The translations under genes were made by a program, and so were the position numbers. The notes under the pieces were generated by a model that was not told where the DNA came from, searched no databases, and saw nothing but the letters and a program-made list of their open reading frames with translations. This document shows, one piece after another, positions 42,264 to 59,778 of a stretch of DNA of 64,000 nt (positions are counted from its first letter, which is position 1; each line of letters opens with the position of its first letter). The stretch covers positions 62,001 to 126,000 of the forward strand of contig NZ_JANKMS010000012.1 in the NCBI RefSeq assembly GCF_024649945.1. Reading direction: 5' to 3'. This DNA is from Flavobacterium panacis (GTDB taxonomy: Bacteria > Bacteroidota > Bacteroidia > Flavobacteriales > Flavobacteriaceae).

Positions 42264-43877
42264 TCATAAATCGACAAAGTATTTTTGTTTTCCAAAATCG
42301 AATTCATAATACGTTAGATTAGGCCAAAGCGGTTTGATTAATCCTTTTTCCCAATTTTGTAAAGCCGTTTGCAATTCTTTGACTTTCTCCGGATTTTTTG
42401 CAGCTAAATCTGTGGTTTCCGATTTATCTTTTGCTAAATCATAAAGCCAGGTTTCATGCGTTTTTCCGCTAATAATCAGTTTCCAATCGCCGCTTCGAAT
42501 TGCTTTTGCATCGCCAGAACGCCAGTACAGATCTTTGTGAGCTTCTTTGTTGTTGTTTACAACATCAACTAAATTAACACCGTCATAAATTCTGTCTTTT
42601 GGTAATCCGGAATGCGTAACTGCTGCAATTGTACTGAAAATATCCAAGGTACTTACAGGTCTTTTGTAAACCGTATTCGGTTTGATTTTTCCTTTCCACG
42701 AAAGTGCAAAAGGAACATTGATTCCGCCTTCGAAATGAGAAAATTTACCGCCTTTTAAAGGAGCATTTGTGGTGGCAAAAGTATAATCGGCGCCACCATT
42801 ATCACTCGCAAAGAAAATCAGAGTATTGTCTTCCAAACCTTCTTTTTTGATTTTTGCACGAATTCTTCCAATCGCATCGTCAAGCGCGCTGATCATGGCA
42901 AAATAGACACGTTTGTTTTCATCTTTAACATTCGGAAAACGATCGTAGTATTTTTTTCTTACCTGAAATGGCGTATGCGGCGCATTAAACGGAACATATA
43001 ATAAAAATGGTTTCGTTTTATTTTTATCAATAAAAGCTTCCGCCTCTTCTGCAAACTTTTCAGTCAAATATTTCTTTTCATCAATAATCGTAGAATCTCT
43101 ACGAATTTGACCAATTCCGACACGGCCTTTACCCCAAATCATTTTGTCGGTAAAATCTTTATGATGGTGATTGATAATATCTGGATTATCATCTTCAGGA
43201 GCAAAAAGAGAAAATGCCTGATAAAATCCGTAATGATAATCGAAACCACGATCTAAAGGAAAAAATCCTTTATTATGTCCCAAATGCCATTTTCCAATAA
43301 TTGCCGTGCTGTATCCTTGTTTTTTGGCTAAATCTGCAAAGGTAATCTCAGACTGAGGCAAACCTTGAGTGGCAATCGAAGCATCATTTGGATAATTGAT
43401 TTTATCGTTTAATCTCCAATTATTCGTATTCATTACATATTTGAAAGCGTAATATTCGAGATTGTTTTTCGGATAACGATCTCCTGGTTGATATTCATGT
43501 CCGAAACGTTCCTGATATCTTCCTGTAATCAATCCTGCTCTGGAAGGCGAACAAATAGAAGAAGAAGCGTAACCTTCTGTAAAGGAAACACCTGAAGCCG
43601 CCAGAGAATCAATTTGCGGAGTAGGAGTCGATTTTCCGCCGTAGAGCGAAATATCATATTTCCCTAAATCGTCGGCTAGAAGAATGATGATATTCGGTTT
43701 TCTTTCCGTTGAAGTATCTTTTTGTGCTAAAAATGCTGTTTTACCTTCAACTAATTTTTCGTTTGGTTTAATTAAAGTTCCGTCGGTATTGATGGGCCAA
43801 AATAGAAATGCTGCCAGAAGGAGAAGCACTATTAAAATGGAAACAACAATTTTGGTTATTTTTTTATAGGTTGCCAT
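42264..43877 (-). CDS. Sulfatase, CxPSR type
   Basis: The 537-residue protein has an N-terminal membrane anchor or uncleaved signal (about 9-28) and the sulfatase signature CSPSRAGLITG, with the formylglycine-forming residue Cys109. The metal-binding LADDLG lies near the start of the catalytic domain, and conserved GKWHLGHN and FFASDNGG motifs follow. It hydrolyses sulfate esters in the periplasm; the organic leaving group is unknown. It is separated from the other two sulfatases by the rhodanese and hydroxylase genes, and a family A palindrome lies upstream. Confidence 0.93.
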   Translation of the reverse strand: MATYKKITKIVVSILIVLLLLAAFLFWPINTDGTLIKPNEKLVEGKTAFLAQKDTSTERKPNIIILLADDLGKYDISLYGGKSTPTPQIDSLAASGVSFTEGYASSSICSPSRAGLITGRYQERFGHEYQPGDRYPKNNLEYYAFKYVMNTNNWRLNDKINYPNDASIATQGLPQSEITFADLAKKQGYSTAIIGKWHLGHNKGFFPLDRGFDYHYGFYQAFSLFAPEDDNPDIINHHHKDFTDKMIWGKGRVGIGQIRRDSTIIDEKKYLTEKFAEEAEAFIDKNKTKPFLLYVPFNAPHTPFQVRKKYYDRFPNVKDENKRVYFAMISALDDAIGRIRAKIKKEGLEDNTLIFFASDNGGADYTFATTNAPLKGGKFSHFEGGINVPFALSWKGKIKPNTVYKRPVSTLDIFSTIAAVTHSGLPKDRIYDGVNLVDVVNNNKEAHKDLYWRSGDAKAIRSGDWKLIISGKTHETWLYDLAKDKSETTDLAAKNPEKVKELQTALQNWEKGLIKPLWPNLTYYEFDFGKQKYFVDL

Positions 43878-43936
43878 ATTTTGGTTTTGGTTTATTTTTG
43901 ATTATGACTTTATTTTTAGGTTTTTTTAGTCCAGCT

Positions 43937-44037
43937 TTGTCATTTCGAGGAACGAGAAATCAGACGCGTTTCTCCACAAAGATTGGCTTTCTGTGAGCAG
44001 AATTTCTAGTGCGATTTCTCGTTCCTCGAAATGACAA
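43937..44037. repeat. Palindromic intergenic element, family A variant
   Basis: A perfect 25-bp inverted repeat (43937-43961 with 44013-44037) starts TTGTCATTTCGAGGAACG and ends GAGAAATC in the left arm. It keeps the outer TGTCATTTCGA and inner GAGAAATC of copies at 1303 and 62151 but replaces CCGAAGG with GGAAC. The right interior CTAGTGCGATTTCTC also matches the 62.2-kb copy. The element fills the gap between the sulfatase and the rhodanese-thioredoxin gene. Confidence 0.93.
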
Positions 44038-44070
44038 ACAGGAAGTCTTTCAGATATTTGTAGAAAAAGA

Positions 44071-44784
44071 TTATTTCGAAGCTAAAGCCACATCAACATC
44101 ATTTTTTAAATCGCCTAAACCGTCTTTTTTGAATACGATTTTACCTTTTTGGTAAAAGATTAGAGTTGGAAAGACTTTTACATTTTTTAAATCGGCAATT
44201 ACCTGCGGACTTTCCTCTAGCTCAATTTCGATGATTTTTAGTTTTTCTCCGTATTGTGTTCGGAGAGATTCTAAAATGGGTTTTACGGTTTTACAAGTCG
44301 CACAATATTTTGAACCAATATCTACCAAAACGTATTCGTTTGAACTAATGATTTTTTTATATGCAGCTAATGATAATTTACTTTTTAAATTGCTGTAAAA
44401 TGGTTTTCCACCGCCAATCCAGTTCGCAATTCCGCCTTCGAGAATATATATTTCTGAAAAGCCTCTTTTAGATAATTCAGTAGATAAAAGACCACTTCTG
44501 TAAGCTGCTATTGAATAGATAAATACTGGTTTTTTGGGATCCAATTCTGCAACTCGTTTTTCAAAATCTTCTGACTTTGTATTGAAATTTACAGCACCTT
44601 CAATATGGTTTAGCGTAAATTCATCAGCACCTCTTGCGTCAATTATCTGCGGACTTTTTTGTGTTTTGATTTTTGAATAAAAAGCATCTAAAAGTACATT
44701 GGCACTTTGTCCTTGAGAAAAAACAACAATTGCCCATAAAAAGGCAATTGCTGTTAAACTGGTTTTTAAAATTTGATTTTTCAT
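44071..44784 (-). CDS. Secreted rhodanese-like plus thioredoxin-like fusion
   Basis: The start is set at MKNQILKTSLTAIAF because it yields a signal peptide and begins just after the upstream gene's stop region; a longer frame would run into the hydroxylase gene. Residues about 28-130 form a rhodanese domain in which the loop reads YSIAAYRSG, with Ser91 where the catalytic Cys should be. Residues about 138-237 form a thioredoxin domain with CATC (161-164) and cis-Pro206 (FPT). The rhodanese half is therefore probably a non-catalytic sulfur-chemistry or binding domain, while the thioredoxin half should be redox active in the periplasm. Confidence 0.9.
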   Translation of the reverse strand: MKNQILKTSLTAIAFLWAIVVFSQGQSANVLLDAFYSKIKTQKSPQIIDARGADEFTLNHIEGAVNFNTKSEDFEKRVAELDPKKPVFIYSIAAYRSGLLSTELSKRGFSEIYILEGGIANWIGGGKPFYSNLKSKLSLAAYKKIISSNEYVLVDIGSKYCATCKTVKPILESLRTQYGEKLKIIEIELEESPQVIADLKNVKVFPTLIFYQKGKIVFKKDGLGDLKNDVDVALASK

Positions 44785-44794
44785 TGTAGCTCGA

Positions 44795-45853
44795 TTAAAC
44801 TTGTTCCAAAACTGGAGCAGGAGTTTCTTCAACAACAATTTCTTTAGGTTTTGACGGAAAAGCCAATACACCTTCGGCAAGAGAACTTCCTTCTTTTTTA
44901 GATTTGAATATCGGCCAAAGAAATTGTGCGTACCATTCTTCTTGTTTGTATGATTTTGTTCCGAATGTTTTTGGATATTTTCGAGTGATTAATCCCGTTC
45001 CGAAAATGATATCCCAAATGAAGAACATATTTCCAAAGTTTCCTTTAAAATGTCCAACCCCGTCTCCGCTGGTATCGGCGTGGTGTGCCTGATGTGTTGC
45101 TGGAGTAGAAATCAATCTTTCTAAAACCCAAGCAATTGGATGAAGCACTTTGTATTTGTAGAAAGGTTTATCCCATGGAATGCTTGAGTGTGCTCCTAAA
45201 GTGATAAAACTTTTAATTACTAATACAAATAAAGCAGGCAATCCTAAACCTAAATACGTTAAAGTGGCTGTCAAATAAATTTGAGAAAAGAAAACGGTGT
45301 AAATAAAGTTTTGTCTCGAAGCCATCGCCATTCCCATGTATGGTGCAGAATGATGTGTTCTGTGAAAACGCCATAAAAACGGAACCTGATGGTGCAGTCT
45401 GTGGTACCAATATTGTGTTAAATCGTCGGCAATGGCAATTAGGAAAAAGCCTCCCCAAAATGGAACCCATGATAAAGCATTCGCTGCATTTGGTAATAAA
45501 TAGGGTAAAGCCGTTAAGCTGAAAAAAGCAATGATTGGAGGTAGAATTAATTTTGGTGCTAAGAAAGAAACAATATCAATTTTGCGTTCTTCGCCTGTCC
45601 ATTCGTCATCGTATAAACCTGCTGCAAATTCGATTATTCCTAGAACAATCATAAATACGATTAATCCCCAAGATCTAATGTTTGCAAAAACAGGTTGTAG
45701 AAATTGTAAAAATGAGGGTACTGTTAAATGTGATTCGCTTACAGAGCCGCCTCCAAGTTGAAAATAAAGGTATATTGCCAATACTGGCAGCGAATAAATA
45801 AAGAAACTTATAGTTAAGTCTCTTACTAATTTTTCTTTTTGAACTATTGCCAT
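44795..45853 (-). CDS. Fatty-acid hydroxylase / sterol desaturase family membrane protein
   Basis: The 352-residue protein has about five transmembrane helices (around 12-32, 60-80, 100-120, 130-148 and 190-218) and the three histidine boxes of the di-iron family: HRLHH (151-155), HRTHH (164-168) and HQAHH (254-258), with extra histidines such as His222. Members hydroxylate or desaturate membrane lipids. A lipid-modifying enzyme inside a sulfatase locus is unusual and suggests the sulfated substrate has an alkyl or steroid-like part, although that is inference. It is 10 bases from the next gene, so co-transcription is likely. Confidence 0.93.
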   Translation of the reverse strand: MAIVQKEKLVRDLTISFFIYSLPVLAIYLYFQLGGGSVSESHLTVPSFLQFLQPVFANIRSWGLIVFMIVLGIIEFAAGLYDDEWTGEERKIDIVSFLAPKLILPPIIAFFSLTALPYLLPNAANALSWVPFWGGFFLIAIADDLTQYWYHRLHHQVPFLWRFHRTHHSAPYMGMAMASRQNFIYTVFFSQIYLTATLTYLGLGLPALFVLVIKSFITLGAHSSIPWDKPFYKYKVLHPIAWVLERLISTPATHQAHHADTSGDGVGHFKGNFGNMFFIWDIIFGTGLITRKYPKTFGTKSYKQEEWYAQFLWPIFKSKKEGSSLAEGVLAFPSKPKEIVVEETPAPVLEQV

Positions 45854-45859
45854 GATTTC

Positions 45860-45979
45860 TTATTTTAAAAATTGATTAATAATGGTTAAACCTCCAGCCA
45901 AAATGGCCAATGGTACTAAAAACAAGATTATTCCAACGACAATCTTTTTTCCTATAATTTCATAATCTATTCGTTTCAT
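45860..45979 (-). CDS. 39-residue single-helix membrane protein
   Basis: A short minus-strand frame begins ATG at 45979, and its product opens MKRIDYEIIGKKIV, followed by a hydrophobic helix (about residues 13-35) and a short polar end. The positive-then-hydrophobic pattern, the position only 6 bases upstream of the hydroxylase gene and the fit in an otherwise empty gap support a real gene. It is below usual gene-caller length limits. Its function is unknown; a regulator or subunit of the hydroxylase is possible. Confidence 0.7.
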   Translation of the reverse strand: MKRIDYEIIGKKIVVGIILFLVPLAILAGGLTIINQFLK

Positions 45980-46066
45980 ATTGTTCGTTTTAAGTTAATA
46001 TTAAAGATTTAATTCTGTAGATTTAGTCGAATTTTAAAATGTATTTTTTCTTAAATGGAAGAAAGT

Positions 46067-47989
46067 TTACTGATTCTTCTTGTGAATGCGCTGTCTCAAA
46101 ACGTCTTGCCAATCAATTAACGGATAGAGATTGTTTTTCTTTGCCTGATTGTCAAATTCTGCCTGAAGTTCTTTTAGTTTTTCAGGATATTTTTTAGCCA
46201 AATCAACTCTTTCGTTAAAATCGGTATTGAGGTTATACAATTCCCAAACATCATTGTCAAAATTACTTGGTTCGTCTTTTTTAGATAAAGCATCATTTTG
46301 AGTAATGTCAATATAATCTGGATGATGAGGTGCCGAAGCTTTCCAGCCGTCTTTGTATAAAGATCTTGAACCGAAAATATAATAATGCTGAATTTTATGT
46401 CTAGAAGGCGCTTTTGCATCAGCGTAAGAATACGCCAAAGAAGTTCCCTGAATAGAATCTTGTGCAATTCCTCTGATGGTTTCTGGTGCTTTGATTCCGA
46501 CAGTTTCTAAAGTAGTTGGCAAAATGTCAATTACGTGTCCGTATTGCGTACGAATTCCAGGTGTTTTAATTCCTTTTGGATAATAAACAATCAGCGGATT
46601 TCTAGTTCCTCCTTCAGAATGTGCATCTTGTTTTAGATTTCTAAACGGAGTATTGGCCGCCAATGCCCAGCCGTGCGGATAATTTTCTTTGGTTGCAGCT
46701 GGAGTTCCTAATAAAGCTGTTTTAGCTAAATTAGATTTCAAAGATTCCTCTTTAATTTTAGGATCAGAAAGCTTTCTGAAAGTTTCGTCCACCAATCCAA
46801 TTGAAGTTCCTTCTTTACTCGCTCCGTTATCTCCTAAAATAACATAGAAAATAGTATTGTCTAACTGATTAATTGATTTCAGATGATCTACAATTCGGCT
46901 TACTTCGTAATCGGTATATTCTAAATATCCGGCATATATTTCCATAAACTGAGCGTATAGTTTTTTCTCCTCTGCAGATAATGTATTCCAAGCAGGAACA
47001 TAAGAATCACGAACTGGCAGTTTAGCGTCAGAAGGAATCAATCCTAATTTTTTCTGATTGGTAATTACTTTATCTCTGTAAGCATCCCAGCCATCGTCAA
47101 ATTTACCTTTGTATTTATCGCTCCATTGTTTTTCTACCTGATGCGGAGAGTGAGTTGCTCCCGGCGCATAGTATAAAAAGAAAGGTTTGTTTGGAGCGGC
47201 ATGTTTCTGACGGTCGATGTACGTAATCGCTTTATCTGTAATTAATTCGCTTAAATGTTTTCCTTTCAAATCAGTTGTAAACTCATTTTTAGATTTGTCT
47301 TTTTCGGCTCCGTTTAATTTCGTACTTCCATTTAACCACGTTTGATCTTCTACTAAATCAGGATTGTACTGATCGGTTTGAGAACCCAAAAATCCGTAAA
47401 AATGCTCGAAACCTTTTCCAGTTGGCCATCTGTCAAACGGACCGGCATCTGTGGCGTCTTCATCTGGCGTAACACCATATTTTCCAACTGCGAAAGTATT
47501 GTAACCGTTATCACGTAAAATTTCTGCAATCGTTCCTGCCGAAGAAGGAAGTCTTCCATCCCAACCAGGAAAACCTGCAGACATAGAAGTATGCGAAAAT
47601 CCACCCACATGAACGGCATGTGAATTACGTCCTGTTAATAAAGCCGAACGTGTTGGCGCACAAATCGCTGTGGTGTGAAAGTTGGTGTAACGCAAACCGT
47701 TATTCGCCAGTTTTTCAAAAGTTGGTGTATTAATTAAACCACCAAAAGCGCTTGTTGCTCCAAAACCGACATCATCTAATAAAATCCAAACTACATTTGG
47801 TGCACCTTCTGGCGCTTTTACAGGTTCGATCCAATATTCTTTAGAATCGGCTAAGGTTTTTCCGATAACGCCTTTATAATTTGGATCTGGTTTTGATTGC
47901 CCAAAACCGAATTGAGCAACAAGTAAAGCAGTAACCAAAAGCCCTTTTTGAGGACTTTTGATAGTGCTGTTATATTTTAAATTTTTCAT
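46067..47989 (-). CDS. Arylsulfatase, CxPTR type
   Basis: The 640-residue protein has a signal peptide (ending FGFGQ) and the arylsulfatase signature with formylglycine precursor Cys110 in AICAPTRSALLTGR. It also has the metal motif LLDDVGFGATSAFGG and the late GDNGASKEGTS. It is a close paralogue of the next gene (638 residues, same motif order), consistent with tandem duplication. The family includes type I sulfatases related to PAS that act on aryl and alkyl sulfates. It lies in the SusCD-sulfatase locus, 10 bases after its paralogue. Confidence 0.95.
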   Translation of the reverse strand: MKNLKYNSTIKSPQKGLLVTALLVAQFGFGQSKPDPNYKGVIGKTLADSKEYWIEPVKAPEGAPNVVWILLDDVGFGATSAFGGLINTPTFEKLANNGLRYTNFHTTAICAPTRSALLTGRNSHAVHVGGFSHTSMSAGFPGWDGRLPSSAGTIAEILRDNGYNTFAVGKYGVTPDEDATDAGPFDRWPTGKGFEHFYGFLGSQTDQYNPDLVEDQTWLNGSTKLNGAEKDKSKNEFTTDLKGKHLSELITDKAITYIDRQKHAAPNKPFFLYYAPGATHSPHQVEKQWSDKYKGKFDDGWDAYRDKVITNQKKLGLIPSDAKLPVRDSYVPAWNTLSAEEKKLYAQFMEIYAGYLEYTDYEVSRIVDHLKSINQLDNTIFYVILGDNGASKEGTSIGLVDETFRKLSDPKIKEESLKSNLAKTALLGTPAATKENYPHGWALAANTPFRNLKQDAHSEGGTRNPLIVYYPKGIKTPGIRTQYGHVIDILPTTLETVGIKAPETIRGIAQDSIQGTSLAYSYADAKAPSRHKIQHYYIFGSRSLYKDGWKASAPHHPDYIDITQNDALSKKDEPSNFDNDVWELYNLNTDFNERVDLAKKYPEKLKELQAEFDNQAKKNNLYPLIDWQDVLRQRIHKKNQ

Positions 47990-47999
47990 TGAATACTAA

Positions 48000-49916
48000 T
48001 TAGTTATTTGTTCCTCCAGGTTTTGTAGCCTGTTTGATTAAATCTGAAACTGTTTTTCCTTTGTCAGCTCCAGTGTTGTGAATTCTTCTGTTGTAAACAT
48101 CCTGCCAGTCAATCAACGGATAAACGTTGTTTTCTTTTGCTTGTTCATCAAACAATTTTTGAAGTTCGGCTAGTTTCTCAGGATACTTTTTTGCCAAATT
48201 GTTGCGTTCGTTGAAGTCTTCGTTTAGGTTGTATAATTCCCAAACATCAGTATCAAAATTACTTGCTGCTGGTTTTTCATTATTTCCTAAAGATTTTTTC
48301 ACTGCGAATGAATCTGGTAAATGTGCTGCCGAAGCTTTCCATCCGTCTTTATAAATCGCTCTATTTCCGAAAATGTAGTAATACTGTACTTTATGTAAAG
48401 ATTCTGCTTTCGGATTATCGATTGAAGCTTTGAAAGTTGAACCTTGAATAATATCTTGTTTGATGTTTTTGATATATTCTGGAGCTTTAATTCCGGCAAT
48501 ATCCAAAGTGGTTGGCAAAATATCGGTTACGTGGCTATATTGATTTCTGATGCCGCCTTTGTCTTTAATTCCGTTTGGATAAAATACAATCAATGGGTTA
48601 CGAGTTCCACCTTCTGAATGTGCGTCTTGTTTCCAGTTTTTGAAAGGAGCATTGGTTGCCTGAGCCCATCCTAGAGGATAATTGGTGTTTAAACCTTTTG
48701 CAGTTCCGATTTCTCCAATATTATTCAAATTGCTTTGGAAGTTCTCTTCATCCGTTTTTCCTTGAGAGAATAAACTTTGGCTAATTGTTCCTTGTAAAGT
48801 TCCTTCTTTACTTGCTCCATTATCACCAATGGCAACAAAAATCAAAGTATTATCAAGTTGTCCGCTTTGTTTTAAATAATCGACAACTCTTCCAATTTCA
48901 TAATCAGTATACGTCAAGAATCCAGCGTAAACTTCCATGAATCTTGCGTAAACTTTCTTTTGATCTGGAGATAATTTTTTCCATTCTGTAATTAAAGCGT
49001 TACGTTCTGGTAAAACGGCATTTGCAGGAATTACACCCAATTTCTTTTGGTTTGCTAATACTTTTTCGCGGTAAACATCCCAACCTTCGTCAAATTTGCC
49101 TTTGTAAGGTTCTACCCATTTTTCAGCAACCTGATGAGGTGCGTGAACTGCTCCAGGCGCATAATACAAGAAAAATGGTTTTCCAGGCGCCGCTTTTTGT
49201 TGTTTTTGAATATAACTGATGGCTTTGTCTGTAATCAATTCATTCAAATGGCGGCCATCAGGTTTAATATGAGTTTGATCTTCCACCAAATCAGGATTGT
49301 ACTGATCGGTTTGAGAACCTAAGAATCCGTAGAAATGATCGAAACCTTTTCCGGTCGGCCATCTGTCAAACGGACCTGCATCTGTTGCGTCTTCATCTGG
49401 CGTAACACCATATTTTCCAACGGCAAAAGTGTTGTAACCGTTTTCACGTAAGATCTCTGCAATTGTTCCTTTGTCAGAAGGAATTCTTCCGTCCCAACCT
49501 GGAAAACCTGCCGATAAAATAGTATGTGAAAATCCACTAACATGCACTCTTCCCGAATTTCTTCCTGTCAACAAAGCGGCACGGGTAGGAGCACAAATCG
49601 CTGTTGTATGAAAGTTGGTATAACGTAAACCGTTGTTGGCCAAATTATCAAAAGTTGGTGTGTTGATCAATCCTCCAAAAGCACTTGCAGCTCCAAATCC
49701 AACGTCATCTAGCAAAATCCAAACTACATTCGGAGCACCTTTTGGGGCTGTTACTGGATCTGGCCAATATTCTTTAGAATCGGCCAACGTTTTTCCAATT
49801 GTTCCTTTAAATTCTGTTTTTTCCTGCGCTATTCCCAATTGAGCAATTAAGAAAGCGGTAATCAAAAGTCCTTTTTTCGGACTTTTGACTGCAATGCTAT
49901 TTTTTAAATTTTTCAT
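48000..49916 (-). CDS. Arylsulfatase, CxPTR type (paralogue)
   Basis: The 638-residue protein opens MKNLKNSIAVKSPKKGLLIT and carries Cys108 in AICAPTRAALLTGR, with LLDDVGFGAASAFGG and GDNGASKEGT at equivalent places to the neighbour. A stretch of about 20 residues in the neighbour (TWLNGSTKLNGAEKDKSKNE region) is absent here, and the C-terminus is about 15 residues longer (ADKGKTVSDLIKQATK). The two genes are adjacent and very similar, so they likely arose by duplication with some divergence in substrate choice. Confidence 0.95.
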   Translation of the reverse strand: MKNLKNSIAVKSPKKGLLITAFLIAQLGIAQEKTEFKGTIGKTLADSKEYWPDPVTAPKGAPNVVWILLDDVGFGAASAFGGLINTPTFDNLANNGLRYTNFHTTAICAPTRAALLTGRNSGRVHVSGFSHTILSAGFPGWDGRIPSDKGTIAEILRENGYNTFAVGKYGVTPDEDATDAGPFDRWPTGKGFDHFYGFLGSQTDQYNPDLVEDQTHIKPDGRHLNELITDKAISYIQKQQKAAPGKPFFLYYAPGAVHAPHQVAEKWVEPYKGKFDEGWDVYREKVLANQKKLGVIPANAVLPERNALITEWKKLSPDQKKVYARFMEVYAGFLTYTDYEIGRVVDYLKQSGQLDNTLIFVAIGDNGASKEGTLQGTISQSLFSQGKTDEENFQSNLNNIGEIGTAKGLNTNYPLGWAQATNAPFKNWKQDAHSEGGTRNPLIVFYPNGIKDKGGIRNQYSHVTDILPTTLDIAGIKAPEYIKNIKQDIIQGSTFKASIDNPKAESLHKVQYYYIFGNRAIYKDGWKASAAHLPDSFAVKKSLGNNEKPAASNFDTDVWELYNLNEDFNERNNLAKKYPEKLAELQKLFDEQAKENNVYPLIDWQDVYNRRIHNTGADKGKTVSDLIKQATKPGGTNN

Positions 49917-49960
49917 TGTTGTATAGTTTTTTAGTTATATGGCTTTTTTAATAGTTTTTC

Positions 49961-50100
49961 TAAACACATAGAATCATAGACATTGTTTGTTGTAAAGGCG
50001 TTTCACTAGTTTCAATTCACATAGCAACTATGTGTGGAGAAACGAGTTTCTCTTTTACTTCCTTTATTAATAATTTAAAATCTATGTTTCTATGTGTTTA
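49961..50100. repeat. Palindromic intergenic element with nested hairpin
   Basis: TAAACACATAGAATCATAGA (49961-49980) pairs with TCTATGTTTCTATGTGTTTA (50081-50100) at 19 of 20 positions. A short hairpin CACATAG/CTATGTG (50018-50024 with 50028-50034) and a CGTTTC/GAAACG pair lie inside. The element fills the gap between SusD and the paralogous sulfatase. Confidence 0.92.
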
Positions 50101-50105
50101 AAATT

Positions 50106-51578
50106 TTAGTATCCAGGATTCTGTGGTAATCCATCAGGATTGATATTTCTTTCACTTTGTGGAATCGGATACAGATTATTTCTTTCCGAAACAGAGTTTT
50201 TAGCGGTTACTTTTTTTACTTCGGTAACTAGAGTTCCCCATCTCACCAAATCAAACCATCTTTGTCCTTCCTGAACAAATTCTTTTTTACGTTCTTCCTG
50301 AATTGCCGCTCTAAAAGTGGTCTGATTCAACGCTACTAAATCAACGGTTACGTCTGGTGTTGTAATTGCTTTTCCGAAAGCTCTTCTTCTAACCTGATTG
50401 ATCAATTCGTAAGCTTCTGCCGTTGGACCGCTTTGTTCATTGATCGCTTCCGCTAAAGACAAAAGAATGTCTGCATAACGAATCACAGGAAAGTTAATCG
50501 CTACGTTTGAAGGCGTTGCCAGATTTGTTAAATCCAAGTATTTTTTAAAGATTGGTTTCGGAAAAGTATAAAGCGTTCCCGTTGTCGGATTAAGCAATTG
50601 TTTCGCATAACTCACATCTCTTCTTTTATCTCCAGCTGCATAAATGTCATAGAATAAAGCAACATCTGAGATAATATCGGCTGGTTCAGTAGCTGTAAAT
50701 CCGGTGAAAGATGTAGCTTGGAAAGTACTTCCGCTAGAACCATTTCCAGCTTGATTGGGTTCAAACTGAACAGAGAAAATATGCTCTTTTCCGTTCTTTT
50801 TGGTTTTAGTGAAAATGTCTTGAAAATCTTCAAACAAAGCATATCCATAACCACCATTGATTACTTCTCTGGCTTTTAAAATAGTGTTAGGCCAATCTTT
50901 TCTAGTGATATATACTTTAGCCAAAATCGCTTTTGCAGCTCCAGAAGTCGCGCGTCCAGCATCTGCAGCGCTATAAGTTGCAGGTAAACTTTCAGCATCT
51001 GTTAAATCTTTAATAATCTGAGCGTAAACTTCATCAACTGTAGCGCGGTTGGTTTTTAAATCTCCCAATTTGATAGAAGTCGCTTCGTGTAAAACAATTG
51101 GAACACCACCCCAAAGTCGAACTGCTTGGAAATACAGTAAACCTCTAATGAATTTAGCTTCGTTAATTAATCTTGTTTTGATAACCTCAGAACCCGAAAC
51201 TTTCGGAATATTATCTATAGAAACATTTGCTCTATTGATTCCCGCATAAATTTGTCTCCAAGCCACCTGAACACGATCTGAAGTGGCGTCATGAGTCAAA
51301 CTACTCAAAGCCCTAACTTGTGGATTCGTAGCAGAAACTCCCGCTGCAGCATAATCAGAAGCCATATCTGTTAAGAAATAAAGGTTTCTTCCAAACAAAC
51401 TCTGTTCGCCTGGATCAAGACTTAATGAAGCGTAGACAGCAGTTACACTTGCAACAGCATCATCTTGTGTTATAAAATAATTGTCTTCGGTTACAAAAGA
51501 GGCTGGTGTTACCTCAAGCTCCGTGCACGATACCAATAAACCGGCACTTAAAAGGAATGTTATAAGGATCTTTTTCAT
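50106..51578 (-). CDS. SusD/RagB-family outer-membrane lipoprotein
   Basis: The 490-residue protein has a lipoprotein signal with Cys18 (LLVSC), the SusD N-terminal pattern (EDNYFITQDDAVASVTAVYA) and helical repeats (RLINEAKFIRGLLYFQAVRL). The terminal segment reads QEERKKEFVQEGQRWFDLVRW and IPQSERNINPDGLPQNPGY. It partners the SusC gene 18 bases upstream and recognises the substrate at the cell surface. It is followed by sulfatases, which implies that a sulfated ligand is imported. Confidence 0.95.
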   Translation of the reverse strand: MKKILITFLLSAGLLVSCTELEVTPASFVTEDNYFITQDDAVASVTAVYASLSLDPGEQSLFGRNLYFLTDMASDYAAAGVSATNPQVRALSSLTHDATSDRVQVAWRQIYAGINRANVSIDNIPKVSGSEVIKTRLINEAKFIRGLLYFQAVRLWGGVPIVLHEATSIKLGDLKTNRATVDEVYAQIIKDLTDAESLPATYSAADAGRATSGAAKAILAKVYITRKDWPNTILKAREVINGGYGYALFEDFQDIFTKTKKNGKEHIFSVQFEPNQAGNGSSGSTFQATSFTGFTATEPADIISDVALFYDIYAAGDKRRDVSYAKQLLNPTTGTLYTFPKPIFKKYLDLTNLATPSNVAINFPVIRYADILLSLAEAINEQSGPTAEAYELINQVRRRAFGKAITTPDVTVDLVALNQTTFRAAIQEERKKEFVQEGQRWFDLVRWGTLVTEVKKVTAKNSVSERNNLYPIPQSERNINPDGLPQNPGY

Positions 51579-51596
51579 TTTGATATATTTTTTTAC

Positions 51597-54500
51597 TTAG
51601 AAAGTTACGTTCAAGCCCGAGATGAATGTTTTGGAGTTTGGATAAGAACCAAAGTCAATTCCCGGATATAAGTTGTTTTGTTCGTATGAACTTACCTCTG
51701 GATCATATCCAGTATATTTCGTCCATGTAATTAAGTTTTCTGCAGAGACATATACTTTTACGCTTTTTGTTCCCAATTTTTTAGAAACGCTTTTGGGTAA
51801 AGTATATCCTAATGTGATTAATTTCAATCGTAAGAAAGAAGCATCTTCCACATATCTTTCAGAAACAATTCCTAAAGGAGAACTTGTCGCTCTCGGAATT
51901 TCATTACTCGGATTTGTTGGTGTCCAACGATTATTTAAAGTCGCTGCAGCATTTGTTCCAAGAGTAGAAATTTCCAATTGCTGATTTAAAGCGTTGAAGA
52001 TTTTAGCTCCGTAAGATCCTTGAAAAGAGAAATTCAAATCGAAATCACCATACGAAACGGTATTGCTGAAACTTCCAACAAATTTTGGCTGAGAAGTTCC
52101 TAAGTTTCCTTTGTCCAAAGCAGTAATTACACCATCTCCATTTGTATCAACATATCTTCGGTCTCCAACTTTTGTATTGGCCAAACTGTTGATTTTTGGT
52201 TGAGTATTCACTTCTTCCTGGGTTTGGAAAATTCCGTTTGTTCTATATCCCCAAAAAGTTCCTAAAGGCAAACCTACTTTTACGATAACAGGCTGTTGCT
52301 GTAATAAAGAACCATTTGGAACAACTGGGAAAAATTCGTTTACACCATTTCCGATCTCGGTAACTTTATTTCTGTTTAAAGAAAATACGATGTTAGAATT
52401 CCAAGCGAAGTTTTCTGTTTTGACATTTTCGGTTGTCAAACCAACTTCAAAACCTTTATTTTCAACTCCACCAATATTTTGAAGTACAGTCGCATAACCA
52501 GAACTCAACGGAACTGGAACGCTGATTAATAAATCGTTTGTTTTTTTGTAATACACATCAAAAACAAAATTGATTTTTCTATCTAATAAGGATAAATCCA
52601 GTCCAACATTATATTGCGTTGTTTTTTCCCATTTCAAATCCGGATTTGCCAATCGGGTAGGAGCAATTCCAGTGTATAAAGTTCCGCCGAAAGAATAATT
52701 TACAGAACCCATTGAAGCAAGAGAAAGATAATTTCCAATTTCTTGGTTTCCAGTTGTTCCCGCTGTAATTCTAAGTTTGGCTTCGGTTACACCTTTGATG
52801 TTGTTGGCAAATTCTTCATCAGTAATATTCCATGAAAATCCTGCTGATGGGAAATAACCCCAAAGTGATTCCGTACCAAATCTAGAAGATCCGTCAGCAC
52901 GTCCTGAAAGTGTAAAGTTGTATTTACCTTTATAAGAATAATTTACCCTTGCCAACCACGATTTTAAAACACTTTCGTAAGCTTCACTATATGGTTTTAC
53001 AGCGACTCCATCCTGAAGCGCATTGTAAGTATTCGCATCATTTACAAACGTATTAGCTCCTGCATTTACGACTTCACCTTTTGTATATTGAAGCGTATAA
53101 CCTCCTAAAGCAGAAAACTTATGACTTTCTCCGAAATTGGTGTTATAGTTTAAAGTGTTTTCATTCAAAACAGAACCAACCAAACGATCTCCAACAGAGG
53201 CTAAACCTTTAGTACCAGCTCCGGTTGTGGTATTAGACGGCGCATAATAATTTTGTTTGGTATTTAAAACGTCGCCACTTACAGCCACTTTAGCAGTTAG
53301 CTTTTTTGTGATTTTATATTCACCAAATAAACTCGTTAGAATTCTGTTTAAGCTGGTTTCGTTTATAGTATTGTCTAAATCGTTAATTGCGTTAGGAACA
53401 TAACCATTTACAGAAGTGGCATACGGATTATTGGTTACATTATAACTTCCATCAGCATTTTTTATTGGAACAACTGGAGCAGTCAATACAGCAGCCACTA
53501 GTGGGTTTGGAGTTCTACCGCTTCCCGCAGTTCCTACACCATTGGCAAGAGAATAAGTGTAATTGGTATTTACACCAAATTTAAAGTTCTGTGAATAGTT
53601 TCTTTCGTAATTGGCACGCAGCGAAATACGTTTAAAATCAGAACCCAAAACAATTCCTTCCTGATCAAAATAACCTGCAGAAACCGAATATCTCGATCTT
53701 TCATCTCCACCCGAAAAAGATAAATTATGACTTTGAACAGGCGCTGCAGTTCTAAAAGCTGCCGACTGCCAATCGTAATTTCCAGAAGTTTTGAAAGCTT
53801 CAATTTGTGCATCAGTAAAAGAAGGCGCCTGACCGATACTCGCCTGAACATCGTTTCTTAAACTGGCCCATTCGCTGGCATTCATTAATTTCAGTTTTTT
53901 CGAAATATTCTGAAATCCGAAATACCCTTGGTACGAAATATTGTCTTGACCTTTTGTTCCTTTTTTAGTGGTAATAATAACAACTCCATTTGCTCCACGT
54001 GAACCATAAATGGCTGTAGCAGATGCATCTTTCAAAACCTCAATAGATTCAATATCAGCTGGATTTATGGTCGACAAAACGTTTACACTTGCTCCAGCAT
54101 AAGTTACGCCAGCAGAACTATTGGCGTTATCATTATAAATTAGAATTCCATCTACAACATAAAGTGGCTCGTTACCAGCTGTAATAGAGTTTCCTCCACG
54201 AATACGGACACTCGAAGAAGCGCCTGGACGACCAGAACTTTGTGTAACTACAACCCCTGCAACTGCGCCTCTTAAGAGATTATCTGCAGAAGAAGTTACT
54301 TGAGATAAATTGGCTTTTGGAACCGAAGCAACAGAACCCGTAATGTCTTTTCTTTTCTGAGTTCCGTAACCAACAACTACTAATTCATCTAGTTCTTGGC
54401 GTTCTTCTTTCAAATTAATAATTACCGGATTTTTTTCTACAATTACTTCGGCTTTTTTATATCCAATGTAACTTACAATTAAAGTGTAAGGGAATTTTTG

Positions 54501-54719
54501 TCCTGTCTGAAAATAAAATTTTCCTTCAGCATCTGTAATAACACCATGAGTTGTTCCTTTAATGGTAACAGAAGCACCAATAACAGGCTGATTGGTAATG
54601 GCATCTACAACAGTTCCGTCAAGTTTAGACTGGATTAGCGGGGTGGTATTTTGGGCTTGTATTCCTGCCGTCAGCAGCAGGAGAAATAACAATATGTATA
54701 TGTTTGAAATTTTTTTCAT
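51597..54719 (-). CDS. SusC/RagA TonB-dependent outer-membrane transporter
   Basis: The 1040-residue protein has a signal peptide, a CarboxypepD_reg domain (about 30-110, LDGTVVDAITNQPVIGASVT), a TonB box and plug region with DASATAIYGSRGANGVVIIT near 230-255, and a large barrel ending in VTF. It imports the ligand captured by SusD. The gene leads the sulfatase locus and has an unusually long predicted leader of about 485 bases from the promoter at 55211-55240. Confidence 0.95.
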   Translation of the reverse strand: MKKISNIYILLFLLLLTAGIQAQNTTPLIQSKLDGTVVDAITNQPVIGASVTIKGTTHGVITDAEGKFYFQTGQKFPYTLIVSYIGYKKAEVIVEKNPVIINLKEERQELDELVVVGYGTQKRKDITGSVASVPKANLSQVTSSADNLLRGAVAGVVVTQSSGRPGASSSVRIRGGNSITAGNEPLYVVDGILIYNDNANSSAGVTYAGASVNVLSTINPADIESIEVLKDASATAIYGSRGANGVVIITTKKGTKGQDNISYQGYFGFQNISKKLKLMNASEWASLRNDVQASIGQAPSFTDAQIEAFKTSGNYDWQSAAFRTAAPVQSHNLSFSGGDERSRYSVSAGYFDQEGIVLGSDFKRISLRANYERNYSQNFKFGVNTNYTYSLANGVGTAGSGRTPNPLVAAVLTAPVVPIKNADGSYNVTNNPYATSVNGYVPNAINDLDNTINETSLNRILTSLFGEYKITKKLTAKVAVSGDVLNTKQNYYAPSNTTTGAGTKGLASVGDRLVGSVLNENTLNYNTNFGESHKFSALGGYTLQYTKGEVVNAGANTFVNDANTYNALQDGVAVKPYSEAYESVLKSWLARVNYSYKGKYNFTLSGRADGSSRFGTESLWGYFPSAGFSWNITDEEFANNIKGVTEAKLRITAGTTGNQEIGNYLSLASMGSVNYSFGGTLYTGIAPTRLANPDLKWEKTTQYNVGLDLSLLDRKINFVFDVYYKKTNDLLISVPVPLSSGYATVLQNIGGVENKGFEVGLTTENVKTENFAWNSNIVFSLNRNKVTEIGNGVNEFFPVVPNGSLLQQQPVIVKVGLPLGTFWGYRTNGIFQTQEEVNTQPKINSLANTKVGDRRYVDTNGDGVITALDKGNLGTSQPKFVGSFSNTVSYGDFDLNFSFQGSYGAKIFNALNQQLEISTLGTNAAATLNNRWTPTNPSNEIPRATSSPLGIVSERYVEDASFLRLKLITLGYTLPKSVSKKLGTKSVKVYVSAENLITWTKYTGYDPEVSSYEQNNLYPGIDFGSYPNSKTFISGLNVTF

Positions 54720-54821
54720 TTCTTTGTGTTGGTTTTAAGTAATTAACAAGACGCCCTGAGCACTGTTTATACAGCACTCTAAAAGTGTTCTTGATTTAGT
54801 GATAAATGTTCTTTAAGCCTC

Positions 54822-54854
54822 GCCATTTCTGTTGCCGCAGAAATGGCTTTTTTT
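54822..54854 (+). terminator. Plus-oriented intrinsic terminator opposite the susC leader
   Basis: A perfect 10-bp stem GCCATTTCTG/CAGAAATGGC (54822-54831 with 54838-54847) is followed on the plus strand by a run of T. No plus-strand gene precedes it, and in the minus-strand leader of susC it has no T-run on the downstream side. It could end an antisense RNA that starts inside or near the susC start region. Confidence 0.75.
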
Positions 54855-55210
54855 ATTTACAGCAGCAGCTTTGCATTGTTTTCATTTTAGTTTTTTTTAA
54901 TTGTTAGTCATTTTAATTTTTGAATAATAGGTAGGTTTTCAAGAATCAGTCAAACGCGATAAAAAGGCATTTGAAAGATTTTTGGGTAAACTCAGTAAAT
55001 ATTTTCGGTGGTGAATTTTTAAGAAATCTGCTTTTGAAAAAATGAAAAAGCACATAAAATAAATGTAGATTTTTAACAACAGAAACACATATAACAAAAA
55101 GTGTTATAAGTGTATACTTTAGGAAGAATGTAACGCGATATGCTTTCTGTCGTTTTCACAATAATAATTTTTAAGTTTGAAACATTATTAAACTCTACTA
55201 ATCCTATAGA

Positions 55211-55240
55211 CAAAGTTAAATTTTATATAATAAAAACCAA
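55211..55240 (-). promoter_or_regulatory. Bacteroidota-type promoter of the sulfatase-locus susC
   Basis: On the minus strand TTG (55240-55238) and TAACTTTG (55218-55211) are separated by exactly 19 bases, a full match to the flavobacterial consensus. Transcription starting about 5 bases after would give a leader of roughly 485 bases before the susC ATG at 54719. Confidence 0.75.
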
Positions 55241-55593
55241 AAGTTTGTAGATTTTTTTTTGAAAAAACTGTGTTTAAGAAGGTGCGCTGAAATTCTAATT
55301 ATTAAATAATCTCTTATTTTAAAGGGTTTAAAGAAATATTCTCCACTAGAATAAATGTTAAAATAAAAATGAAATGAAAATTAAAATTGTAGTATTTTAC
55401 ATGGTTTTAAAGACTCTTTATCTTTAATCTAATGGATTGATTTAAGCTAAAATCAACTTAAAAACGTCAGCAAAATACTTTTGACTCATTATTATGCAAA
55501 TTTCTAACTTAATTTTAAAGTTGATTTTGAATAAATTAGAGTAAATTTATAGAGACCAAAAAGAAAACAAATTTTTTTATTCATGATAAGGAT

Positions 55594-55620
55594 AAATACT
55601 TATATTTGTAATAAGTATTT
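55594..55620 (+). promoter_or_regulatory. Inverted repeat overlapping the moeA -7 element
   Basis: AAATACTTAT (55594-55603) and ATAAGTATTT (55611-55620) are perfect complements around a 7-base centre. The centre overlaps TATATTTG (55601-55608), a match to the TAnnTTTG -7 element, about 36 bases before the moeA start codon. A protein bound here would block the promoter, so it looks like a repressor operator for the molybdenum-cofactor operon. No TTG element lies at the expected distance. Confidence 0.7.
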
Positions 55621-55643
55621 TTACTTAGTTTTAAATTAACGAA

Positions 55644-56816
55644 ATGATAGAAGTAAAAGAAGCATTAGAAATTGTAGCAGCAAACAGCTCAAATTTGTCC
55701 ACACAAAAGATTGCAGTAAAAAAAGCACTTGGATTTATTTTGGCAGAAACAATTTATTCGCCAATTTCAATGCCGCCTTTTAGACAATCTGCAATGGACG
55801 GTTATGCTTTTATTCATTCAGAAAGACATCAATTTGATATTGTTGGAATTTCTCAGGCTGGAGATCATGCTAACATAAAACTAAAAGAAAACGAAGCGAT
55901 TCGAATTTTTACCGGAGCGTACGTTCCAGATAATGCCGATACGGTTATTATGCAGGAACATGTAATGGCAAATGAAAATTCTATTTTAATTGCAAAAAAG
56001 CCTGAACCTTTTGCCAATGTTAGAAGTAAGGGAGAACAAATTAATGCTGAAGACGTTGTTTTTGATGCTAATACTTTGATTACACCAGCCGCAATCGGAT
56101 TTTTAGCTTGTTTAGGAATTACAGAGATTACGGTTTATAAAAAACCGAAAGTAGCCATTTTGGTTACAGGAAATGAATTGGTAAAGCCTGGAAAAAAACT
56201 TTCAAAAGGTAAAATTTATGAAAGTAATTCGGTGATGTTAGAGGTGGCACTTGAAACAATTGGTATTAAGAAAGTTAAAATTCATACCGTTAAGGACAAT
56301 TTAAAAGCTACAAAAAGTGCTTTAAAAACAATTTTGGAAGAAAATGATGTTGTTTTAATTTCGGGCGGAATTTCAGTTGGAGATTATGATTTTGTGAAAG
56401 AAGCTTTATTGAAAAATGGTGTAGAAGAGCTTTTTTATAAAATCAATCAGAAACCAGGAAAACCAATGTTTTTTGGTGCTAAAAAAGATACTTTGGTTTT
56501 TGCACTTCCTGGAAATCCGGCGTCATCATTGACTAATTTTTATATTTACGTTTATCCGGCTATCAAAAACAGAATGGGATTTTCGAATACACATTTGCCA
56601 AAAATAGTTCGTAAATTAAATAGTACAATACAAAATACAACGGGTAAAACACTTTTTCTAAAAGCTTTATACGAGGAAACAAATGTGACCATTCTTGAAG
56701 GACAAAGTTCTGCAATGCTTAATTCTTTTGCCATCGCGAATGGTTTAGTGATTGTACCGCAAGATGTTCAGAATATTAAAAAAGGACAATTGGTTACGGT
56801 ATTGCCGATTGATTAG
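55644..56816 (+). CDS. moeA: Molybdopterin molybdotransferase MoeA
   Basis: The 390-residue protein has the MoeA pattern with the opening MIEVKEALEIVAANS, the PPFRQSAMDGYA motif near 43-54, the VTGNEL motif near 176 and ISGGISVGDYDFVKEAL near 236-252. C-terminal GNPASSLTNFYIYVYP completes the active-site domain. It inserts molybdate into adenylated molybdopterin. It is the first gene of the Moco operon, directly downstream of the inverted-repeat promoter. Confidence 0.96.
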   Translation: MIEVKEALEIVAANSSNLSTQKIAVKKALGFILAETIYSPISMPPFRQSAMDGYAFIHSERHQFDIVGISQAGDHANIKLKENEAIRIFTGAYVPDNADTVIMQEHVMANENSILIAKKPEPFANVRSKGEQINAEDVVFDANTLITPAAIGFLACLGITEITVYKKPKVAILVTGNELVKPGKKLSKGKIYESNSVMLEVALETIGIKKVKIHTVKDNLKATKSALKTILEENDVVLISGGISVGDYDFVKEALLKNGVEELFYKINQKPGKPMFFGAKKDTLVFALPGNPASSLTNFYIYVYPAIKNRMGFSNTHLPKIVRKLNSTIQNTTGKTLFLKALYEETNVTILEGQSSAMLNSFAIANGLVIVPQDVQNIKKGQLVTVLPID

Positions 56817-56962
56817 TTTTTTTAGAAGAAGAGGCAATAAGAAAGGGATATAGATTTTATGGACAATAATGAAAAGCGCTGTATAAATAAAAACACATAG
56901 CTTGCTAAATATGGATTATTGAAAGACAATAGTAGAAAACCTGAAACTTGAAACAAAAAGAC

Positions 56963-57535
56963 ATGGAAACATTAACGGTATTTATTCTTTGCGGAGGAAA
57001 AAGCTCCCGAATGCAGTCAGAAAAAGGATTGGTTTTGTTTCAGGATAAACCATTCATTGAGCACATTATTCAGGCGATTTTACCGATTACCGATAACATA
57101 AAATTGATTACAGGATCTAAAGAATACGATTATCTGGAATATGAAAAAATACCAGATTTGGTTTTAGATAAAGGCCCGATGGGCGGAATTTACACCGCCT
57201 TGTCACATTCTGAAACAGAATTCAATCTGATTTTAAGCTGTGATATTCCGTTAATTTCAACCGAATTATTACAGGAATTAATTTCAAAACATACTAAAGA
57301 AGCAGGAATTACAATTTTTGCTTCAGAAAGTAAAACGCATCCGTTAATCGGAATTTATTCGAAAAGTATTGTTCCGACCATCAAAGAAGCAATCGAATCT
57401 AACGAATTAAAGATGATGGATTTGCTGACGAAATTACCGCATCAAATCATAAACATAGAAGAAAGCGAAAACTTTCATTTAACCAATATTAATTCGGCTG
57501 ACGAATTAAACGACCTGAATATCAATTTAATTTAA
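56963..57535 (+). CDS. mobA: Molybdenum cofactor guanylyltransferase (MobA family)
   Basis: The start is placed at the ATG giving METLTVFILCGGKSSRM rather than an upstream TTG. The 190-residue protein has the nucleotidyltransferase motif LCGGKSSRMQSEKG (near 9-22), the Lys in FQDKPFIEH, and LVLDKGPMGGIYTALSHSE with the later metal-binding LSCDIPLIS. It transfers GMP to molybdopterin for bis-MGD enzymes such as assimilatory nitrate reductase. It lies between moeA and cobA in the same operon. Confidence 0.92.
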   Translation: METLTVFILCGGKSSRMQSEKGLVLFQDKPFIEHIIQAILPITDNIKLITGSKEYDYLEYEKIPDLVLDKGPMGGIYTALSHSETEFNLILSCDIPLISTELLQELISKHTKEAGITIFASESKTHPLIGIYSKSIVPTIKEAIESNELKMMDLLTKLPHQIINIEESENFHLTNINSADELNDLNINLI

Positions 57536-57540
57536 AGACT

Positions 57541-58329
57541 ATGCGAAATGTAAAAACACCCAAATTGACGATTGTAGGCGCAGGTCCAGGCGATGTTGAA
57601 TTGATCACATTAAAAGCAATTAAAGCTTTGGAAAGTGCCGATGTAGTTTTGTACGATGCTTTAGTAAATGAAGAATTACTGGAATATGCATCAAATGCTG
57701 AAATTGTTTTTGTTGGAAAACGTTTAGGCTGTCACGCTTACACCCAAGATCAAATTAATGATTTGATTGTTTCCATGGCAAATCTTCACGGACATGTGGT
57801 TCGTTTAAAAGGAGGCGATTCTTTTGTTTTTGGAAGAGGAAGCGAAGAAATAGATTATGCTGTAAAATTTGGTTTAGAAACTTCTGTTGTACCAGGAATT
57901 TCGTCTGCTTTGGGCGTTCCGGCTTCTGCTGGAATCAGTTTGACGCAACGTAAAATTGCTGAAAGTTTTTGGGTAATTACGGGAACAACTTCCAATCATG
58001 AACTTTCTAAAGATGTTCATTTGGCGTCAAAATCGGCTGCGACTGTGGTTATTTTGATGGGAATGCATAAATTAGATGAAATTATTTCTATTTATCAGGA
58101 AAATAGAAATGATGATTTGCCAATTGCTATTATTCAAAACGGAACAAAAAATTCTGAACAAAAAGTGATTGGAACTATAAACACAATTACTAAATTGGTA
58201 TCCGAAAAGAATATTTCATCACCGGCTATTATAGTAATTGGCGAAGTAGTAAAAAATACATCAAAATTAACGGAATATTTTCAAGAGCATTTTGATGATG
58301 AATTTATCTTTCAAAATTTAAACTTATAA
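57541..58329 (+). CDS. cobA: Uroporphyrinogen-III C-methyltransferase
   Basis: The 262-residue protein has SUMT signatures: VGAGPGDVELITLKAIKAL (12-30), VLYDALVNEELL, VRLKGGDSFVFGRGSEE and the SAM-binding PGISSALGVPASAGISLT. It methylates uroporphyrinogen III to precorrin-2, the entry to siroheme and cobalamin. Its place inside a Moco operon fits nitrate assimilation, because nitrite reductase needs siroheme while nitrate reductase needs Moco. Confidence 0.95.
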   Translation: MRNVKTPKLTIVGAGPGDVELITLKAIKALESADVVLYDALVNEELLEYASNAEIVFVGKRLGCHAYTQDQINDLIVSMANLHGHVVRLKGGDSFVFGRGSEEIDYAVKFGLETSVVPGISSALGVPASAGISLTQRKIAESFWVITGTTSNHELSKDVHLASKSAATVVILMGMHKLDEIISIYQENRNDDLPIAIIQNGTKNSEQKVIGTINTITKLVSEKNISSPAIIVIGEVVKNTSKLTEYFQEHFDDEFIFQNLNL

Positions 58330-58331
58330 GC

Positions 58332-58571
58332 ATGATCGAGGTTAAATATTTTGGAGCTGTTGCTGAAAAAACAAAATGTGAATTCGAAAAATTATCTTTT
58401 TCAGAAGAAGTTTCACTAAAAAAACTATTGCAAGATTTAAACGAAAAATATGAGTTCGAATCTTTGACTTTCAGCGTTGCAGTAAATCAAAAAATAGTTT
58501 CGAAAGCTGTAGATTATACTTTGCAAACGAGCGATATTGTGGCTTTGTTGCCTCCATTTGCTGGAGGTTAA
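58332..58571 (+). CDS. moaD: Molybdopterin synthase sulfur carrier subunit
   Basis: The 79-residue ubiquitin-like protein ends in PPFAGG, the di-glycine tail that is adenylated and thiocarboxylated. It follows cobA by 2 bases and precedes moeB, its activating enzyme. Confidence 0.96.
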   Translation: MIEVKYFGAVAEKTKCEFEKLSFSEEVSLKKLLQDLNEKYEFESLTFSVAVNQKIVSKAVDYTLQTSDIVALLPPFAGG

Positions 58572-58581
58572 AAATAAATTT

Positions 58582-59682: not shown

Positions 59683-59761
59683 ATCTATGCGCAAAGTATT
59701 GGATTAATTCGTGAAATGTGAATTACACAAATTATGGCGTGATAATTCGTGAATTCGTGGC
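59654..59761. repeat. Palindromic element overlapping the moeB 3' end
   Basis: GCCACGAATTCACGAATT (59654-59671) and its perfect 18-bp complement (59744-59761) flank a spacer with further ATTCGTGAA words. The left arm lies inside the moeB coding end, so insertion or expansion of this element has rewritten the moeB C-terminal tail. The right arm ends 17 bases before the moaE start. Confidence 0.93.
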
Positions 59762-59778
59762 AGAAAAAAATAAAGATA

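Follow-up and report, generated by a model that had tools for sequence, protein, structure and literature searches.

Gene content of the locus

The 64,000-nucleotide stretch of Flavobacterium panacis DNA analysed here (hereafter the window) carries a locus of eight genes that encode a SusC/SusD pair, three S1 sulfatases, a small membrane protein, a hydroxylase-family protein and a rhodanese–thioredoxin fusion. Upstream of the SusC gene lie an operator-like motif and two short open reading frames (ORFs) rich in Cys codons. These regulatory signals, which an earlier note on the locus missed, are the strongest evidence on its function and point to sulfur scavenging. The genome itself is 5.96 Mb and of Flavobacterium type. 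The genes are as follows.

51597-54719, minus: SusC/RagA outer-membrane transporter (Pfam SusC/TonB receptor; TIGR04056, 914 bits)
50106-51578, minus: SusD-type lipoprotein (Pfam)
48000-49916, minus: S1 sulfatase s1 (PF00884, 218 bits; CAPTR motif; GKYG at the active-site-His position)
46067-47989, minus: S1 sulfatase s2 (PF00884, 208 bits; CAPTR motif)
45860-45979, minus: mp39, a 39-residue single-helix membrane protein (ORF; helix judged by eye)
44795-45853, minus: FA_hydroxylase family protein (PF04116, 85 bits)
44071-44787, minus: rhodanese–thioredoxin fusion with a signal-like start (Pfam Rhodanese and Thioredoxin)
42264-43877, minus: S1 sulfatase s3 (PF00884, 206 bits; CSPSR and GKWHL motifs)

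The genes are separated by gaps of 6–193 nt. The start of the rhodanese–thioredoxin gene was set at the ATG at 44787, replacing the TTG of the ORF list. Pfam bears out the gene content and single-strand arrangement described in the earlier note, as well as its statement that enzymes for sugars are lacking, since the scan finds no glycosidase or lyase domain in the eight proteins. The locus therefore has the SusC/SusD pair (Pfam, NCBIfam) of a polysaccharide utilisation locus and lacks, among these proteins, its glycoside hydrolase or polysaccharide lyase. Mp39 has zero Pfam or NCBIfam matches.

Conservation among relatives

The genome collection holds 326 relatives of the hydroxylase, of which we kept the best 80, all from Flavobacterium or labelled Flavobacteriaceae or [Flexibacter]. 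Mp39 and an s1/s2-type sulfatase are encoded upstream of the hydroxylase in 80/80 loci, and the rhodanese–thioredoxin fusion downstream of it in 78/80. SusC and SusD are present in 78/80; of the two misses, one locus is cut by a contig edge (L032), and in the other the pair would be located outside the fetched flank (L063). The third sulfatase, s3, is present in 64/80. Because the gene order recurs in these best 80 relatives, the clustering cannot be put down to chance.

Among 296 genomes drawn from the order, 14 of the genus, the present one included, encode a hydroxylase of at least 83% identity. No such gene is present in 12 listed members of the genus, and two further genomes of the order have weak matches with internal stops; the 260 matchless genomes are unlisted. 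Judged by this draw, the locus belongs to only some members of a single genus.

Promoter and operator-like motif

The comparison covers 64 sequences: that of the window and those of 63 loci, out of the 80, for which 400 nt or more of upstream sequence were available. The features found are as follows.

55211-55242, minus: locus promoter, consisting of TTTTGG (55242-55237), a 19-nt spacer after TTG, and TAACTTTG (55218-55211); block conserved in the 64-row alignment
55194-55210, minus: operator-like motif TCTATAGGATTAGTAGA, directly downstream of the −7 box (alignment, pattern search)
55073-55159, minus: leader ORF 1, GTG start, VKTTESISRYILPKVYTYNTFCYMCFCC and stop; 64/64 sequences, no indel
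55030-55051, minus: weak hairpin after leader ORF 1, GCTTTT...AAAAGC followed by AGATTTCTT, a candidate attenuator (seen, uncounted, when the window and 17 loci were each folded singly)
54853-54885, minus: leader ORF 2, MKTMQSCCCK and stop; 64/64 sequences
54822-54847, minus: invariant hairpin GCCATTTCTG-CGGCAA-CAGAAATGGC, with A7 before the stem (alignment, terminator scan)
54758-54779, minus: third hairpin GAGTGCTG-TATAAA-CAGTGCTC, upstream of SusC (64-row alignment)
46015-46030, plus: second operator-like motif with two mismatches, upstream of mp39 and the hydroxylase (pattern search)

The promoter assignment rests on what we take to be the Bacteroidota consensus, TTG-N19-TAnnTTTG. The 16-base operator pattern next to it is exact in 63/64 upstream sequences and has one mismatch in the remaining one. 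The same motif occurs twice at the organism's sulfate-assimilation (cys) operon, which encodes a TauE-type permease, CysH, CysD, CysN, sulfite reductase and a methylase, with an Rrf2 regulator encoded adjacent (several of these names were assigned by eye). At this operon the motif is found with at most two mismatches in 8/8 orthologous loci, the present one included, and it is absent from two distant homologues. The genome contains five exact matches to the pattern, three of which (the sulfatase locus and the cys operon twice) were used to build it, and two of which are further sites. The motif is also found upstream of a second SusC gene (SusC2; C11:652168, one mismatch) and upstream of a glutamate dehydrogenase gene.

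The hydroxylase module often has a copy of its own. Within 170 nt upstream of mp39, the operator is found at up to two mismatches in 46/81 sequences (window included), while the reversed pattern at up to three mismatches is found in 0/81. This makes it probable that the hydroxylase shares the regulon. The module may be transcribed separately within it, which weakens the refutation proposed in the earlier note, independent expression of the hydroxylase. Upstream of s3, the operator at up to two mismatches is found in 0/64 loci.

Several other matches in the genome were noted. Two that lie inside genes (L122, L125) were set aside as chance. The genes beside the one-mismatch intergenic matches at C11:81703 (L123), C2:181302 (L121) and C22:711519 (L126) were named by eye MsrA, a second Rrf2 regulator and an ECF sigma factor. 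In addition, an operator-like motif and Ile-rich mini-ORFs (MRNQIISLIIINIIIDR and stop; MKNFASIIII...) precede a gene (L117; G000:C11:640963) that was judged by eye to encode an acetolactate-synthase-type small subunit.

Cys-codon leader ORFs and leader RNA structures

Leader ORF 1 comprises 28 codons and is in frame and uninterrupted in 64/64 sequences. Its C-terminal end is CYMCFCC or a near variant, directly before the stop. Across 57 distinct rows, Cys codons 22, 25, 27 and 28 are invariant, with codons 25 and 28 alternating between TGT and TGC from row to row. The start codon is TTG in 35 rows and GTG in 22, and both other frames contain stops in 57/57. Leader ORF 2 or a variant of it has at least two Cys codons in each of the 64 sequences. 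Two Cys-rich ORFs occur in 560 nt of the window, compared with a mean of 0.03 in shuffled sequences, at least two being found in 1/2000 shuffles. A run of putative regulatory-amino-acid codons near the end of a short ORF, the mark of leader-peptide attenuators, is thus present in 64/64 sequences.

The A7 tract, 10-bp stem and loop of the invariant hairpin are identical in 64/64 sequences, and on the plus strand the terminator scan reads this hairpin as an intrinsic terminator with a T7 tail. The third hairpin has compensating changes between species, judged by eye without a pair count. Rfam at gathering thresholds gives no family at the SusC leader. We dropped a possible third small ORF (MARLKEH...), which would start within the invariant hairpin, because its frame, as judged by eye, is not kept in all species. 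The pattern TGYTGYTGYAARTAA has four matches in the genome, one being the leader itself and the other three judged to be chance, and two matches to the leader RNA model (L131, E 0.69; L132, E 0.79) were set aside.

The leader RNA model matches the SusC2 gene (C11:651881) with 62 bits. The upstream layout is the same there, with a Cys-rich ORF, a mini-ORF and a hairpin whose stem is partly different. Two Cys-rich leaders precede glutamate dehydrogenase in 4/5 loci and a single one in the fifth; these five exclude L149, a 43% homologue of the enzyme for which no start could be placed. In those four loci a strong intrinsic terminator, identical except for tail length, lies between both leaders, and this is the only gene at which a clear leader terminator was found. 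A PF04116 gene lies behind glutamate dehydrogenase in 5/5 genomes (in the present genome, the G000:C32:345217 region, L118/L128).

Sulfatases and accessory enzymes

In a PDB sequence search with s1 alone, the closest solved relatives are the bacterial arylsulfatases 4cxk and 1hdh, at 232 bits. We take the marks of an S1 sulfatase to be a C-x-P/A-x-R maturation motif and an active-site His after Lys (GKWH). The maturation motif is present in 93/93 s1/s2-type copies (79 loci) and in 64/64 s3 copies. At the active-site-His position, s1/s2-type copies have GKYG in 92/93 and GKWH in 1/93, so that this mark is missing from all but one, while s3 has GKWHL in 64/64.

Some relatives encode further sulfatases. 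In 11/80 loci (L028 partial), an SdsA1-type alkylsulfatase of 650 residues with a metallo-beta-lactamase fold lies between the hydroxylase and the rhodanese–thioredoxin fusion; the copy that we searched matches six alkylsulfatases of solved structure, including SdsA1 (2cfu), with 545–586 bits. A further arylsulfatase is encoded in 21/80 loci, on that side of the s1-type gene which faces SusD. Such a mixed set of enzymes served by a single importer is more in keeping with general organosulfate scavenging than with the use of one polysaccharide.

As the earlier note had it, no formylglycine-generating enzyme (FGE) is encoded in the window, as judged by tblastn; the genome encodes one at G000:C22:382111-383043, with the stretch GGSFLC...YC. 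In one further relative (G323), the FGE gene follows rhodanese–thioredoxin. The companion claim, that the window also lacks an anaerobic sulfatase-maturating enzyme, holds as far as a reading by eye with no family model run: the only ORF of at least 250 residues with a CX3CX2C motif (61109-62125) reads as MoaA.

Three His boxes, as expected of PF04116, are present in 80/80 hydroxylases. The ornithine-lipid hydroxylase model OlsE gives 46 bits, far below its NCBIfam equivalog cut-off of 475, and the hydroxylase has no solved relative by sequence at E ≤1. An AlphaFold2 model built with 20 close relatives was left unused (mean pLDDT 36). The rhodanese domain has Ser in 77/77 relatives examined at the position that we take to be that of the catalytic Cys, and it is therefore unlikely to be a working sulfurtransferase. 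The thioredoxin CxxC motif is present in 77/78 relatives.

Other features of the window

A palindromic repeat (GTCATTTCGAGGAACGAGAAATC and its complement), presumably of a kind scattered across Flavobacterium genomes, lies at 43938-44036, between rhodanese–thioredoxin and s3. Divergent from the locus, a molybdenum-cofactor cluster on the plus strand (55644-61134) encodes MoeA, a MobA-like protein, a tetrapyrrole methylase, a ThiS-family protein, ThiF–rhodanese, MoaE and MoaC–MoCF; a MoeA match is present in 29/80 relative loci. Rfam finds two Flavo-1 RNAs elsewhere in the window, at 9824-9912 (plus) and 31408-31549 (minus). A second SusC/SusD pair in the window (20688-27967, minus) is accompanied by a DUF5117/Met-zincin protein and perhaps serves peptide uptake.

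Proposed function and mechanism

The locus probably serves sulfur scavenging, through uptake and desulfation of alkyl and aryl (possibly also galactan) sulfates, under the control of a sulfur repressor and tandem Cys-codon leaders. Sulfur acquisition as the purpose, already put forward in the earlier note, is well supported by the conserved leaders, by the operator that the locus has in common with the sulfate-assimilation operon and by the further copies of this operator ahead of the hydroxylase module. The gene content, its conservation, the leader ORFs and the shared motif are all read from sequence; the course of events sketched next, from the identity of the repressor and the sense of regulation to the attenuation mechanism, the substrates and the direction of each step, is what we infer.

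SusC and SusD would import small sulfate esters, namely alkyl, aryl and possibly some sugar sulfates. The exported sulfatases would free sulfate, which the CysDNH/sulfite-reductase pathway would assimilate. The Rrf2 regulator whose gene adjoins the cys operon probably binds the operator over the start region. When sulfur is plentiful, this repressor would cover the start site; when cysteine falls, initiation would be released. If charged tRNA-Cys became scarce, ribosomes would slow at the Cys codons of the leaders, the leader RNA would refold and SusC would be made. The thioredoxin domain may hold the exported sulfatases or FGE reduced. Mp39 and the hydroxylase seem to be members of this regulon too, and the hydroxylase may act on the desulfated alkyl product or on the cell's own lipids.

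With respect to substrates, the earlier suggestion of sulfated lipids, steroids or alkyl compounds is sustained in part. Alkyl and aryl sulfates are favoured over a polysaccharide by the alkylsulfatase of some loci, the arylsulfatase relatives of s1 and the lack of glycosidases; steroids and lipids are singled out by nothing, and the nearest relatives of s3 are kappa-carrageenan sulfatases.

Several observations weigh against this interpretation. The synonymous excess in leader ORF 1 is modest (33 observed, 24.7 expected). When about 132 kb of the same genome (window included) were scanned, two further free Cys-rich ORFs, unconnected and starting with TTG, also came up. Before the sulfate-assimilation operon, no Cys leader was found. 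The hairpin after leader ORF 1 is weak and no textbook terminator, and the sense-strand terminator scan found none. At SusC2, the first leader is Cys-rich in only 2/5 loci and leader 2 is Cys-free in one. FGE is encoded in 0/80 loci. Whole-genome operator matches at up to one mismatch number 11, compared with 8 for the reversed pattern, so that operator counts alone do not prove a regulon and the case rests on position and conservation. Finally, the relatives come from one genus and are the 80 nearest of 326, so that the counts are not independent.

Alternative explanations

The locus could be a polysaccharide utilisation locus of the ordinary kind, directed at a sulfated glycan, with its glycosidases encoded elsewhere. 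SusC/SusD with sulfatases is the usual glycan layout, and the closest solved relative of s3 is the kappa-carrageenan sulfatase 6prm (318 bits; PDB sequence search), which also counts against the sulfur-scavenging interpretation. Against a glycan locus stand the lack of glycosidase and lyase domains in the eight proteins, the Cys leaders and the sulfur operator, and the alkylsulfatase of some relatives; s3 is itself missing from 16/80 loci and has no operator of its own at the threshold used. The stretches between and beside the locus genes were read in 10 loci only, so glycosidases in other loci are possible. On balance we regard a glycan locus as unlikely. Still less probable is the idea that the Cys-rich ORFs encode small functional peptides that bind metals or act in redox reactions instead of being attenuators. 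The CYMCFCC and CCC motifs could bind metals, and the frame of leader ORF 1 is always open; yet leader ORF 2 has only about 10 residues, much of leader ORF 1 varies between species, and unrelated Cys-rich ORFs stand before glutamate dehydrogenase, with the strong terminator between them in 4/5 loci.

An alternative that deserves more weight, though we hold it doubtful, concerns the invariant hairpin and is compatible with sulfur scavenging. The hairpin may mainly be the terminator of an antisense RNA that arises from the SusC start region and represses the transporter, in the manner of the DonS family, in which case the mini-ORFs would matter less. DonS RNAs are described as cis-antisense RNAs of Bacteroides, 78–128 nt in length and antisense to susC homologues (PMC7366714). 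In accordance, the plus-strand hairpin with its T7 tail is the only terminator-like site found in 54700-55640; its A7 tract, stem and loop do not vary; and a T-rich tail on that strand is seen by eye in 4/5 SusC2 loci, the SusC2 copy of the present genome being the one without it. On the other hand, an antisense promoter of the TAnnTTTG type, the only type sought, lies within the first 30 SusC codons in only 4/64 sequences. The resemblance to DonS is a terminator antisense to the susC leader, and the difference is that no conserved antisense promoter of this type was found. An antisense RNA would also leave the Cys codons and their TGT/TGC variation unexplained.

A wider reading of the leaders starts from the fact that PF04116 genes occur both in the sulfatase locus and behind glutamate dehydrogenase, each of them a Cys-leader locus. 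The tandem leaders might couple sulfur scavenging to membrane remodelling, with the PF04116 products modifying or sparing the cell's own lipids when cysteine is short, for instance by replacing cysteine-derived sulfonolipids. We consider this coupling speculative and rather improbable.

Relation to known systems

Polycysteine leader ORFs in mycobacteria, according to work that Canestrari et al. published in 2020 (Mol Microbiol), reportedly attenuate downstream genes in response to cysteine. The Flavobacterium leaders resemble them in being short ORFs rich in Cys codons, but they occur in Bacteroidota, as a tandem pair and in front of the gene for a SusC importer, and a promoter with a 5' leader precedes them. 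In Pseudomonas, an arylsulfatase and the SdsA1 alkylsulfatase serve sulfur scavenging. The enzymes described here are homologous to these (1hdh and 2cfu), but they are encoded with SusC/SusD, and the s1/s2-type lacks the active-site His (GKYG in 92/93).

Leader attenuation at amino-acid operons has been reported for Flavobacterium psychrophilum (PMC9723704). By comparison with such attenuators, the sulfatase locus shares the order of a short ORF with regulatory codons, an RNA structure and then structural genes; it differs in that the amino acid would be cysteine, the target is uptake and desulfation instead of a biosynthesis operon, and the terminator is weak. Sulfatase-bearing polysaccharide utilisation loci share the SusC/SusD pair and S1 sulfatases, but not the sulfur-type control signals, the absence of glycosidases, or the hydroxylase, mp39 and occasional alkylsulfatase. 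Our searches of open-licence papers yielded no earlier description of cysteine leader peptides, either in Bacteroidota or on a sulfatase locus. The new parts are the cysteine leaders in Bacteroidota and the PF04116 genes in two cysteine-leader loci.

SusC/SusD–sulfatase clusters are commonly taken as glycan loci, and the Flavobacterium locus carries evidence of another purpose, sulfur supply. The combination of Cys-codon leaders with a sulfur operator is a regulatory signature that might serve to spot other such loci.

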